Assembly: GCA_903921785.1 (NCBI GenBank)
Contig: CAIXRH010000267.1
Location: 1 to 35,349, forward strand
DNA length: 35,349 bases
Origin: an uncultured Pseudomonadota bacterium
Lineage (GTDB): Bacteria > Myxococcota_A > UBA796 > SXON01
Direction: 5' to 3'
Shown here: in pieces, positions 1 through 4,937 of the stretch
Layout of the letters: each line of letters opens with the position of its first letter
Position numbering within the stretch: the stretch's first letter is position 1
Position numbers and translations under genes: made by a program
Notes under the pieces: generated by a model
The model's database searches: none
Told to the model about the DNA's origin: nothing
The model's input: only the letters and a program-made list of their open reading frames with translations

Positions 1-158
1 CGCCGTCCGCCCCGTCCGCTCCCACGACGCCGTCGGCCCCCAGCGCACCGTCTCGTCCGAGCGCGCCGGCGGCGCCGAGCGCGCCGGCGGCGCCGAGTAC
101 GCCGAGCGCACCGACGGCCCCGAGCGCTCCGGCAACCCCGAAGAAGCCCGGGAGCTGA
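1..158 (+). CDS. C-terminal end of a Pro/Ser/Ala-rich protein (partial)
   Basis: The frame that starts at base 3 is open from the window edge to a TGA at 156-158. It encodes about 51 residues of Pro-Ser-Ala-Pro repeats (PSAP, PAAP, PTAP) and ends in ATPKKPGS. An exact 18-bp tandem duplication at 60-77 and 78-95 underlies part of the repeat. This looks like the disordered, low-complexity tail of a larger protein, perhaps a linker or wall-spanning stalk. No domain is visible and the function cannot be told from this fragment. The frame choice rests on the regular repeat and on a GC-rich inverted repeat just after the stop; other frames are also open here because GC is so high. Confidence 0.55.
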   Translation, partial: PSAPSAPTTPSAPSAPSRPSAPAAPSAPAAPSTPSAPTAPSAPATPKKPGS

Positions 159-192: not shown

Positions 193-416
193 GGCGGTAC
201 CGCAGGCGGAACCACCCCCGGCGCCCTCGGCGGCGCCCGGGCTCGCCCACCCATGCTTCGCCTCCGCGGCGCTGCGCGAGGGACCGGACCCCGCGCGGGA
301 GCGGGAGCGGAGGCGGCGCCCGCAACGGGGAGGCCAGGCCCGTGCCCCCCTTGATCCCCACCCAACGGGGGACCCCGCGCGCCGCCGGGGACCCACCGTT
401 CGCGGCGTCCACCGGT

Positions 417-422
417 TAGCGG
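417..422 (+). promoter_or_regulatory. -10-like element TAGCGG, leaderless start of the HTH-SspB gene
   Basis: TAGCGG sits exactly 6 nt before the GTG at 429, the spacing seen at six other genes in this window. It favours GTG 429 over the in-frame GTG at 423. No Shine-Dalgarno sequence is present and no convincing -35 is seen. Confidence 0.45.
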
Positions 423-428
423 GTGCCC

Positions 429-1103
429 GTGCCTCGCCCCTCCGAACCGCTCCTGAAGCTCCTCCGCGACGCGCTCCAGAAGCGCGGCCTCTCCACCAGC
501 GAGCTCGCCGCCCGCACCAGCCTCGATCGGGGCGAGCTCAAGCGGAAGCTCTCCGGTGCGGAGGACCTCAGCGTAGACCAGTTCATCGCCCTCGCCAACG
601 CGCTGGAGCTCCAGAAGGAGCTCGCGGGGCTCGTGGGCATGGAGGAGGAGCCGGAGCCGATCCGCGGGCCCGCGGTGCACACGCTGCGCACGGCGTCCGC
701 CGCCGCGGTCGTCGAGCCGCCCCCGCCGGGTCCGGATCCGCTGGCGAACCCGGCGGAGGAGCTGTTCAAAGGCGGGTTCGCCTGGGGCCTGGACATGATG
801 GTGCACTTCGACGCCAAGCAGCTTGGTGGCTCCGGTGTGCCGGAGTCCGTCCTCCGGAAGTTCCCGGATGTGCTGCCGATCCGCTTCGATCCGCGGTTCC
901 ACCGACACAACGCCCCGAAGTACTTCGAGGATGGGGTCACGGTCTTCCTGTCGTTCGACGCGAAGCGGGAGTGTTCGTTCCCCTGGGCCGCCTTCCGAGC
1001 GGTGAACTTCACCATCCCGGCCGACGCGGTGGCCCCCCCGCCTCCACCAGAGCCTCCTGCACCCCCGCCGCGTCCGGTGCTCCGCCTGGTCCGGGACGAA
1101 TGA
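429..1103 (+). CDS. HTH (XRE-type) protein fused to an SspB-like ClpXP adaptor domain
   Basis: The protein has 224 residues from GTG 429 (GTG 423 would add two). Residues about 5-60 form an XRE-type helix-turn-helix (LSTSELAARTSLDRGELKRK). After an acidic/proline linker, residues about 115-195 follow the SspB pattern: a beta strand MMVHFDA, then GVPESVL, and then LSFDAKRECSFPWAAF, which matches the strand-plus-PW.A signature of delta-proteobacterial SspB-like proteins. A proline-rich linker leads to the C-terminus RPVLRLVRDE. E. coli SspB ends in RPALRVVK, the tail that docks on the ClpX N-domain. I infer a DNA-bound or DNA-guided adaptor that hands substrates to ClpXP. The stop overlaps the next start (ATGA at 1100-1103). 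The domain calls rest on pattern reading; the SspB call is moderately sure and the substrate is unknown. Confidence 0.7.
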   Translation: MPRPSEPLLKLLRDALQKRGLSTSELAARTSLDRGELKRKLSGAEDLSVDQFIALANALELQKELAGLVGMEEEPEPIRGPAVHTLRTASAAAVVEPPPPGPDPLANPAEELFKGGFAWGLDMMVHFDAKQLGGSGVPESVLRKFPDVLPIRFDPRFHRHNAPKYFEDGVTVFLSFDAKRECSFPWAAFRAVNFTIPADAVAPPPPPEPPAPPPRPVLRLVRDE

Positions 1104-2521
1104 ACCGCCCGCGACTGAGCCGCGCCGGCCGGGTCGCCATGGGCGTCGCGATAGCGCTCGCCGCCTGCCACACTACCGCGGCGCCCCGAACAACGGCCGG
1201 ATCGGACGGGGGAAAGCGGCGGGCCGAGCCGGTCGTCGCCGCGCCTCCGGCCGCCACCGCCCCGCTCCCGCCCGCCGTGGCCGTCGCAGGCCCGTTCTCG
1301 TTGGGGATCAACGAGGCGCTCGCCGTGCCGATGCGCTTTCGCAAGGACATGTCCGGTGATCGGCTCGGGGCGATGATCGAAGACGATGCGGGCAAGGTGC
1401 GCACGCTCGGGGGCACCTGGGTGCGCGGACACACCGCGAACTTCCCCCGGACCTCCTGCGCGGACCTCGGCGCCGGCGGCCCCGGCTCCGCCGAGATGGA
1501 CCTCTGGGTGAAGACGCTCGGCAGCGACCTCCACGGGCTGGCGATGCTCGGTCCCTGGCCGGGCAACGCCACGGCCAACCGCACCGAAAACTACGTGCCG
1601 GCCGACCTCCCCGCGTACTCCGCCTGCATCACGGCCCTCGTCGAGCGCTACGACGGCGACGGGGTGGACGACATGCCCGGCCTGGTCCAACCGGTGAAAT
1701 ACTGGGAGTTCGACAACGAGCCCGACCTCAAGAACAGCCAGGTCGCCCGAGACGCCGTGCGGGACTACGACCCGACCACCTTCTGCACGCCCACCGAGTA
1801 CGCGAAGGTGTTGCTGGCCACGCGCGAGGCCGTGCGGGCGGCGGACCCGACCGCGAAGCTCCTGGCGCTCGGCTTGTACCGGCCCTATGCGGAGCAGGGG
1901 CAGGCCTACGCCAAGGCCGTCCTCGCCGTGCCGGGCGCGGCCGACGCGTTCGACGTGGTGTCCCTGCACACCTACCACGACGACGACGGCGAGCGCCTCG
2001 CCGGCGCCATCCGCACCTTTCGCACCTTGGTGCCCGGAAAGCCGATCTGGATCACCGAGGCGAGCGTCACCACCGCCACTGGCGAAGACGACCAGGGGCG
2101 GCGGGTCGCGGCCTACGTCGCCCAGGCGGCGGCGGCCGGGGCGGAGCGGCTGTTCTGGCACACGCTCGCCGATCCGCCGGAGCGTCCGAGCGGACGCGGG
2201 GGCGGAGGCCCCGGCGGCGGTCACGCTCCCGGCGGACACTTCGCCACCAACTCGCTGCTGCGCGGGATCGAAGGTGGAACCGAAGAGAAGCCCGCGGGCG
2301 CGGTCTATCGGCACCTCGCCGCGCGCCTCGCCACGGACGACCTCTTCGGCGCCACGCTCGACGGAGAAGGAGCGGCAAAGCTACGCTCTGGCGCGGTCTT
2401 GCTGTTCGCGGGCAGTCGGCTCGCCGCGGCGGGGGGCACCGACCTTCGCACCGGGGACGTGATCGCGGCCGGCGCCACGGCCACTGCGCCGGCCTGGCTC
2501 AACGCTCCGCCGAAGCCGTAG
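1100..2521 (+). CDS. Lipoprotein glycoside hydrolase, clan GH-A (GH39/GH5-like)
   Basis: The protein has 473 residues. The ATG overlaps the preceding stop by 4 nt, so translation is probably coupled. The N-terminus has an Arg-rich n-region, a hydrophobic stretch and the lipobox LAAC (residues about 22-25), which predicts a lipoprotein. The rest reads as a TIM-barrel glycosidase: WEFDNEP supplies the acid/base Glu207 and WITEAS the nucleophile Glu320, the strand-4/strand-7 arrangement of clan GH-A retaining enzymes. VVSLHTYHDDD between them matches a substrate-binding strand. A Gly/Pro-rich insertion lies near residues 355-380. The exact family and substrate cannot be assigned. A GH31 lipoprotein follows downstream, so a role in breaking down exogenous polysaccharide or oligosaccharide is plausible. 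Confidence 0.72.
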   Translation: MNRPRLSRAGRVAMGVAIALAACHTTAAPRTTAGSDGGKRRAEPVVAAPPAATAPLPPAVAVAGPFSLGINEALAVPMRFRKDMSGDRLGAMIEDDAGKVRTLGGTWVRGHTANFPRTSCADLGAGGPGSAEMDLWVKTLGSDLHGLAMLGPWPGNATANRTENYVPADLPAYSACITALVERYDGDGVDDMPGLVQPVKYWEFDNEPDLKNSQVARDAVRDYDPTTFCTPTEYAKVLLATREAVRAADPTAKLLALGLYRPYAEQGQAYAKAVLAVPGAADAFDVVSLHTYHDDDGERLAGAIRTFRTLVPGKPIWITEASVTTATGEDDQGRRVAAYVAQAAAAGAERLFWHTLADPPERPSGRGGGGPGGGHAPGGHFATNSLLRGIEGGTEEKPAGAVYRHLAARLATDDLFGATLDGEGAAKLRSGAVLLFAGSRLAAAGGTDLRTGDVIAAGATATAPAWLNAPPKP

Positions 2522-2690: not shown

Positions 2691-4937
2691 ATGCAGCTCC
2701 TCCTCCTCGTCGGTTGCCTCGGCTCCGTCCAGCTCGGCGACCTCCAGGTTGCCGAACGAGAAGACGGCGGGCTCGACGTCTCGCGGTACACGGGAAAGCC
2801 GCTCGTAAGCGACCTTCGTTTCGCGGTCGGCCGCGGAGACGAAGCCTACGAGATGCAGGCCGGCAGCTACCGGCAGACCGCCGGGGACACGACCTGGACC
2901 CCGGTGCACCTCGCCAACCGCCAGGGCGAGATGCTCTGGACCTTCGAGCTGCTCGACGAGGCGAACACCCCCGTCGGCTCGGTGACGATCTCGCCCGCGG
3001 CCAGCTCCACCCTGGCGGTGCAGGTCCAGGCGTTCGACGGCAACCGCGTCCGGTTCGACGCCGCCTGCACCGGGGACGACCACTTCGTCGGCGGCGGCGA
3101 ACACGCGTGGGACACCGACCACGTCGGCGAGGCCTTCGACCTCTGGGTGAGCGAGCCGGGCATCGGCAAGGTGGAGACCGACGATCAGCCCGACGACTGG
3201 TTCATCACCGGCACCCGCCACGCGTCGAGCTACCCCGACCCGTTCTTCATCCGCCCGGAGCCGGTGAGCGTGCTCGCGCAGACCAACGCCCGCGTGAGCG
3301 TGGACCTGTGCACCGGCGACCGCTGGCGTCTCGACGTGGCCGATGCAGCCGCCACCTGGCTCATCAGCGACGCCGACACGGCGCTGGAGCTGGTGCAAGA
3401 GCACGCGGTGATGCGCGGCACCCCCGCGTTGCCGCCCGACTGGGCGTTTGGCACGTGGGCGGACGCGATCCGCGGGGCGGACCGGGTGCGCGCCGTGGTC
3501 GCCGAGCTCCGCGAGGCCGGGGCCTCCGCCAGCGTCATCTGGAGCGAAGACTGGCGCGGCGGCGAGGACCTCGCCTTCGGCTACCACCCGAAGCCCGAGT
3601 GGGCGGTGGACGAGACGCTCTACCCCGACCCCTCCGGCATCGACGCCGAGATGGAGGCCGCCGGCTTCAAGTGGTTGGCGTACTTCGCGCCGTTCCTGGT
3701 GGAAGGCACCGCCGCCTGGGACGAAGGCGTGCCGTACGCGATCCAGGACGACAAGGGCGAGCCCTACACGTTCCTCGGCCCGTCCCTGGAGGACACGACG
3801 ACGGTCGACCTCACCCGCAGCGCCGGGTACGCCTGGGCCGTGGGCAAGATGGAGGCCGCGGCCGACGTAGGTTTTGACGGGTGGATGGCCGACTACGGCG
3901 AGTGGCTCCCCCCCGACGCCGTGCTCGACAACGGGGACCCGCTCGGCGGCCACAACGACTGGCCCCTGGCATGGCAGAGCGCCAGCGCCGAGGCGCTCGA
4001 TGGCCGCGACGCCACCTTCTTCGCCCGCTCGGGCTGGAGCGGCAGCCCGGTATACGCCCCCGTCCACTGGCCCGGCGACCAGCGCACCAGCTTCGACGCG
4101 GACGACGGCCTCCCCTCCGTGGTCCCCCTCATGCTGGGGGACGCGATCGCCGGCGTGCCGTTCACCGGCTCCGACGTGGCCGGGTACCAGTCGGTCGGCA
4201 ACGACCCGAGCACGAAGGAGCTGTGGATGCGCTGGGCGGCGCTCGGCGCCTACAGCCCGGTCTTCCGCACCCACCACGGTGCGTTCTCCGACGACGACTG
4301 GCAGTTCGACTCCGACGCCGAGACCCTCGCCACCTTCGCCAGCCTCAGCCAGGATCACGCGCGGCTGTTCCCCTACCTGCGCGGGCTCGCGGAGGAGGCC
4401 GCGGCGATCGGCACGCCGCTGGTCCGGCCGCTCTTCCTCCACCACCCCAGGGAGAGCTGGGGTCGCACGGACGCGTGGTTGCTCGGGCCGAACCTCCTGG
4501 TCGCCCCGGTGCTGGAGGCGGGCGTCACCTCCCGTCAGGTCGACCTGCCGAGCGACACCAGCTGGTTCTCCTGGGCGGACGGGAGCCCGCAGGAGAGCGG
4601 CGAAAAGGACGCGCCGCTGGGCACGATCCCGGTCTTCGCGCCGGCGGGAGCGGTCATCCCCACCTTCGCCGAGGCGCCCGACTCGCTCGTCGCCGGCCCG
4701 ATCGACGGCATCACCACCCTCGCGGACGTGGAGGGCGCGCGCGTCATCCACGTCTTTGCGGGCGCAAAGGGCAGCTTCACCGAGGCGGACGGCACGGTCT
4801 ACACGTCGGACGGCAAGGCCACCGCGCCCGGCGAGGCCAGCTACACGCTCACCAGCGGCACGATCACCGCAGGCGGGCTCACGCTCACCATCGAGGGCAC
4901 GGTGGAGCGGGCGTACACCGTGAAGGTCTGGGACTGA
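2691..4937 (+). CDS. Lipoprotein glycoside hydrolase family 31, YihQ-like subgroup
   Basis: The protein has 748 residues. The N-terminus MQLLLLVGC carries a lipobox (LVGC), so the mature enzyme is probably lipid-anchored outside the cytoplasm. The catalytic barrel has WMADYGEWLP with nucleophile Asp401, and WPGDQ with acid/base Asp463; SDVAGY (Tyr499), RWAALGAYSPVFRTH and DDWQFDSDAE follow. This order is that of the E. coli YihQ (sulfoquinovosidase) branch of GH31. From memory of YihQ, the sulfonate-binding Gln (QDW) is Glu here (EDW), and the Arg of its FGKR stretch is absent (FGYH). I therefore expect an alpha-glycosidase of another specificity. A beta-sandwich typical of GH31 follows the barrel. 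The gene is next to another lipoprotein glycosidase. Confidence 0.8.
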   Translation: MQLLLLVGCLGSVQLGDLQVAEREDGGLDVSRYTGKPLVSDLRFAVGRGDEAYEMQAGSYRQTAGDTTWTPVHLANRQGEMLWTFELLDEANTPVGSVTISPAASSTLAVQVQAFDGNRVRFDAACTGDDHFVGGGEHAWDTDHVGEAFDLWVSEPGIGKVETDDQPDDWFITGTRHASSYPDPFFIRPEPVSVLAQTNARVSVDLCTGDRWRLDVADAAATWLISDADTALELVQEHAVMRGTPALPPDWAFGTWADAIRGADRVRAVVAELREAGASASVIWSEDWRGGEDLAFGYHPKPEWAVDETLYPDPSGIDAEMEAAGFKWLAYFAPFLVEGTAAWDEGVPYAIQDDKGEPYTFLGPSLEDTTTVDLTRSAGYAWAVGKMEAAADVGFDGWMADYGEWLPPDAVLDNGDPLGGHNDWPLAWQSASAEALDGRDATFFARSGWSGSPVYAPVHWPGDQRTSFDADDGLPSVVPLMLGDAIAGVPFTGSDVAGYQSVGNDPSTKELWMRWAALGAYSPVFRTHHGAFSDDDWQFDSDAETLATFASLSQDHARLFPYLRGLAEEAAAIGTPLVRPLFLHHPRESWGRTDAWLLGPNLLVAPVLEAGVTSRQVDLPSDTSWFSWADGSPQESGEKDAPLGTIPVFAPAGAVIPTFAEAPDSLVAGPIDGITTLADVEGARVIHVFAGAKGSFTEADGTVYTSDGKATAPGEASYTLTSGTITAGGLTLTIEGTVERAYTVKVWD

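Follow-up and report, generated by a model that had tools for sequence, protein, structure and literature searches.

A probable SspB-family ClpXP adaptor with an N-terminal XRE-type HTH domain, found across related genomes of a bacterial order

The window, meaning the whole 35,349-nt stretch of DNA analyzed here, encodes what is probably a true SspB-family ClpXP adaptor that has gained an N-terminal XRE-type DNA-binding domain and is the sole SspB detected in most genomes of its order. SspB is the textbook stand-alone adaptor, handing tagged proteins to the ClpXP protease, and no description of an HTH-SspB fusion was found in the literature searched. Because the only SspB of this order is apparently fused to an HTH, there may be a physical link between the control of genes and the destruction of proteins in these bacteria. 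A whole order apparently using only HTH-fused SspB would have a single molecule for both general delivery of tagged proteins and DNA binding, and promoter-directed local proteolysis would become directly testable with such a protein.

Homology gives good support to the predicted adaptor role. In the mechanism we propose, the SspB-type domain and the C-terminal tail would deliver substrates to ClpXP through tag binding and ClpX docking, and the HTH, carried on a flexible linker, would bind DNA. Such binding would most likely regulate the adaptor's own operon; more speculatively, it may in addition recruit ClpXP and substrate there.

Gene and domain architecture

The open reading frame is 224–226 aa long depending on whether translation starts at GTG 429 or at GTG 423. 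The former is favored because homologues share the N-terminal consensus M-x-R-P-S-[DE]-P-L-L, so that both the reading frame and its start are retained from a preliminary description of this DNA. The features discussed below are as follows.

3–158, plus strand: 3' end of an upstream ORF (stop at 156–158), PSAP-rich with a Pro-rich tail ending ATPKKPGS; the window starts inside this ORF
429–1103, plus strand: HTH-SspB fusion gene, 224 aa, GTG start (alternative GTG at 423), with the family-wide N-terminal consensus
444–632, plus strand: XRE/Cro-C1-type HTH domain, residues 6–68, recognition helix DRGELKRKLSG
648–722, plus strand: disordered linker 1, residues 74–98
735–1016, plus strand: SspB-fold domain, residues 103–196, from fold and profile evidence
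1017–1067, plus strand: Pro-rich linker 2, residues 197–213, from sequence
1068–1100, plus strand: ClpX-docking-type tail PRPVLRLVRDE, LR-hydrophobic-hydrophobic invariant in 30 of 30 homologues
1100–2521, plus strand: glycosidase-like lipoprotein gene (Glyco_hydro_cc/weak GH44), its start overlapping the fusion stop (ATGA)

A full-length AlphaFold2 model, built with the family alignment as input, had a pLDDT of 84, with the HTH and SspB domains mostly above 90 and linker 1 below 50. All 30 distinct homologous sequences have the same architecture: an HTH, then the conserved domain, then the tail, with a variable linker on either side of the conserved domain. Mean column entropy in this set was lowest in the tail (0.48 bits), intermediate in the HTH (1.39) and the SspB domain (1.47), and highest in linker 1 (2.08) and linker 2 (2.21).

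The SspB domain, its tail and its partners

Single-sequence searches of Pfam, NCBIfam, and PDB found no SspB in the window protein, which is not evidence against the assignment because such searches are insensitive. The PF04386 profile likewise returned nothing over its cut-off from the window's own genome or class, since the fused form is too divergent; one of 22 fused family members matches it (E 0.003), and the window protein itself does not. At the level of structure, a Foldseek search with the full-length model placed SspB at PDB ranks 1–7 (Caulobacter 2qaz/2qas, 1yfn, 8et3, and Agrobacterium 2nys). VIA-align with the same model returned HTH matches only, and the SspB domain was therefore modeled alone (pLDDT 91.8). 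For this domain-only model, SspB took Foldseek ranks 1–17 with probability 1.00, the other matches listed reaching at most 0.41. SspB entries also took VIA-align ranks 1–12 (for 2qaz, Z 10.0 and rmsd 2.8 over 89 residues), with a score of 7.8 for the next entry, a designed barrel, and of 6.0 after it.

Profile comparisons extend this result to the sequence level, where a domain profile of the fused family picks up 2qas (E 0.008). Over the SspB part, HHalign of the fused family against the stand-alone SspB set of the phylum reached 97.3% with E 2.5e-11. PF04386 matches six of these stand-alone proteins, five of them above its cut-off, with E values from 1.4e-5 to 3e-11, and a profile of the stand-alone set recovers E. 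coli SspB 8et3 (E 1.2e-8). Profile links connect the fused family, the stand-alone proteins, and PF04386, which makes this homology and more than a shared fold; judged by these links, the fused protein is a divergent SspB variant rather than a plain PF04386 member. The preliminary description had proposed an SspB-like domain that could be checked by profile match and by superposing a predicted structure on SspB; both a profile match and the fold were detected and the structure superposes, confirming the domain despite the silence of Pfam on the single sequence. Compared with SspB of E. coli, H. influenzae, and Caulobacter (PF04386), the fused protein shares the SspB fold, a flexible C-terminal linker, and the LR-hydrophobic-hydrophobic tail, but it adds the N-terminal XRE HTH, is only about 20% identical, falls below the PF04386 cut-off, and in some members carries extra residues after LRLV.

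The tail of E. coli SspB reads RPALRVVK. An L-R-[LVI]-[VIL] motif lies at the extreme C-terminus (within the last few residues) of all 30 aligned homologues, where its composition-based chance occurrence is about 0.0009 per sequence. The proline linker and the SspB-type tail RPVLRLVRDE, both noted earlier, thus hold up, and every aligned homologue retains an L-R-x-V-type ending. The tail is missing from one SspB-like protein of the same class (L129); an SspB-like domain can therefore exist without ClpX docking, which counts against the adaptor reading.

The ClpX zinc-binding domain, which engages the SspB tail (PMC12373786), was present in 13 of 13 genomes examined, and in 30 of 38 genomes tmRNA exceeded the Rfam cut-off. 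The tmRNA tag of the window's own genome is (A)ANNSDHFSEALAA, and the native ssrA tag sequence is AANNSDHFSEALAA; in this genus the tag placement by ARAGORN was wrong, and the tag was instead taken from direct reading of the sequence. Because this tag starts with AANN and that of E. coli with AAND, tag binding is not predictable by simple identity.

Distribution and origin of the fused form

The preliminary description had proposed looking for the fusion in related genomes, and homologues of the protein were found in 49 of 58, including 26 of the 27 of good quality. Aligned homologues are approximately 36–63% identical to the window protein. When genome contigs were scanned for close relatives of the protein, a single locus turned up, and a plasmid search gave zero homologues of the fusion.

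More broadly, the SspB-domain profile matches 129 of 379 genomes of the phylum. Among 20 phylum loci examined, those outside the order mostly encode HTH-less proteins, many ending in LRVVK, LKLV, or similar. Two families of the same class (f8 and f9) have SspB-like proteins of 134–164 aa without an HTH, ending in HLRVVK, HLRIVK, HLRLVD, or HLKLVK. The earlier remark that SspB normally occurs as a stand-alone protein holds within this phylum. The stand-alone proteins of the phylum and class (L081-L085, L116-L134) share the same domain with the fused form through continuous profile links, and many have an LRVVK-type tail, but they lack the HTH and have different neighbors; two of them (L081, L084), for instance, have a conserved upstream gene that contains a vWA-like segment, as read from sequence. 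A second SspB-like domain was seen at L133 (G031:C285), inside a 450-aa open frame ending in HLSLVE.

Nearly all matching genomes of the order carry one SspB copy, and the fused form appears to be the only SspB in most of them. In a phylogenetic tree, a strongly supported branch sets apart all the fused domains along with the stand-alone, tail-less L129, which has a long branch and an unsure placement. Given this grouping and the single copy in nearly all matching genomes of the order, a one-time fusion that displaced the stand-alone adaptor is the most likely history. A fused copy outside the class (G273) may represent transfer or contamination.

The HTH domain and the gene neighborhood

Residues 6–68 form an all-helical domain in the AlphaFold2 model (pLDDT ~95). 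By itself, the window protein has only weak HTH matches in Pfam, all below cut-off (HTH_31, E 5e-4); across the family, HTH_26 or HTH_3 matches 21 of 22 members at E ≤ 1, with a best E of 7e-7. Fold and family profiles together corroborate the XRE-type HTH that had been read from the sequence. In VIA-align, the structures that it matches best are those of restriction controller proteins (3g5g; Z 10.7, 2.2 Å over 70 residues). The HTH fold and an LDR recognition-helix motif are shared with the XRE/Cro-C1 controllers C.AhdI and C.Esp1396I, which regulate restriction-modification genes and, unlike the HTH of the fusion, are free-standing proteins. In the recognition helix R34, L41, and G43 are invariant, R34 in 30 of 30 homologues. 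R34 aligns with the Arg of the LDR motif in C.AhdI and is presumably equivalent to R35 of C.Esp1396I. The latter is a base-binding recognition-helix residue (PMC4041747). From the invariant recognition-helix Arg, we infer that the HTH would bind DNA.

The net charge of the HTH is low (−3 to +2 across homologues), and the domain could instead be a protein-binding module. A loss of DNA binding, leaving the HTH solely a dimerization or client-binding module on an otherwise ordinary SspB, would agree with this charge, with the weak Pfam scores of the window protein, and with an alignment of the upstream regions of ten congeners in which no conserved palindromic operator was seen. However, R34 and K/R38 are invariant over deeply diverged homologues, and we consider this loss of DNA binding unlikely. 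A GTTAG/GATAG element shortly 5' of the start (window 410–428) recurs in congeners and may be the −10 element of a leaderless promoter.

The ORF end upstream of the fusion gene most likely encodes the last part of a gpV/VgrG-type spike protein, the body of which would be on another contig of the same genome (G000:C350), the join being presumed. That contig carries a spike pair (L155, L156) and ends in the Gly-rich tail of spike2. The contigs of several congeners also break near the repetitive spike tail. A relative (G003, L064) has the spikes and the fusion in this order without a break, and there 34 nt separate the stop of spike2 from the start of the fusion. Of the 13 loci with enough upstream sequence, 10 (L064, L069, L071-L074, L076, L078, L080, and L031, from families f1, f2, f3, f4, and f6) have one or two PF04717 spike genes upstream of the fusion, and some of these also have PAAR and a methyltransferase-like gene. 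The conserved spike island stands apart from the sheath genes. A contractile sheath was found in 29 of 29 relatives. In most relatives there are two adjacent sheath genes (open frames of ~600 and 400 aa), as on G000:C97 (L163), which suggests that the order has a conserved contractile injection system.

These neighbors raise the possibility that the fusion is part of the injection system or a turnover factor for it, delivering spike or effector proteins to ClpXP or controlling expression. The spikes in five families, the short distance in G003, and the ubiquity of the sheath favor this reading. We nevertheless regard it as doubtful: three loci (L070, L075, L077) have no spikes upstream, yet the fused protein is conserved there; the sheath genes of the window's own genome are on contigs other than the window's; and same-class stand-alone SspBs have other neighbors. 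The link between fusion and injection system is suggestive, not universal. A DNA-anchored adaptor is a similarly tentative extension of the SspB-family adaptor, in which the HTH would set SspB at chosen promoters where tagged proteins or clients are destroyed, coupling transcription to proteolysis and possibly controlling the injection system.

A role primarily as a transcription factor, in which the SspB domain would sense tagged peptides or ClpX occupancy so that proteolytic load alters DNA binding and ClpXP delivery is secondary, accords with the C-terminal sensor domains common in XRE regulators, with the invariant recognition-helix Arg, and with retention of both SspB fold and tail, but it is quite improbable, as loss of delivery would leave most genomes with zero SspB adaptors and the conserved tail is the delivery element of known SspB. 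On the 3' side of the fusion, the lipoprotein gene is followed by a GH31 glycosidase at window positions 2691–4937, an order that is the same in the congeners examined.
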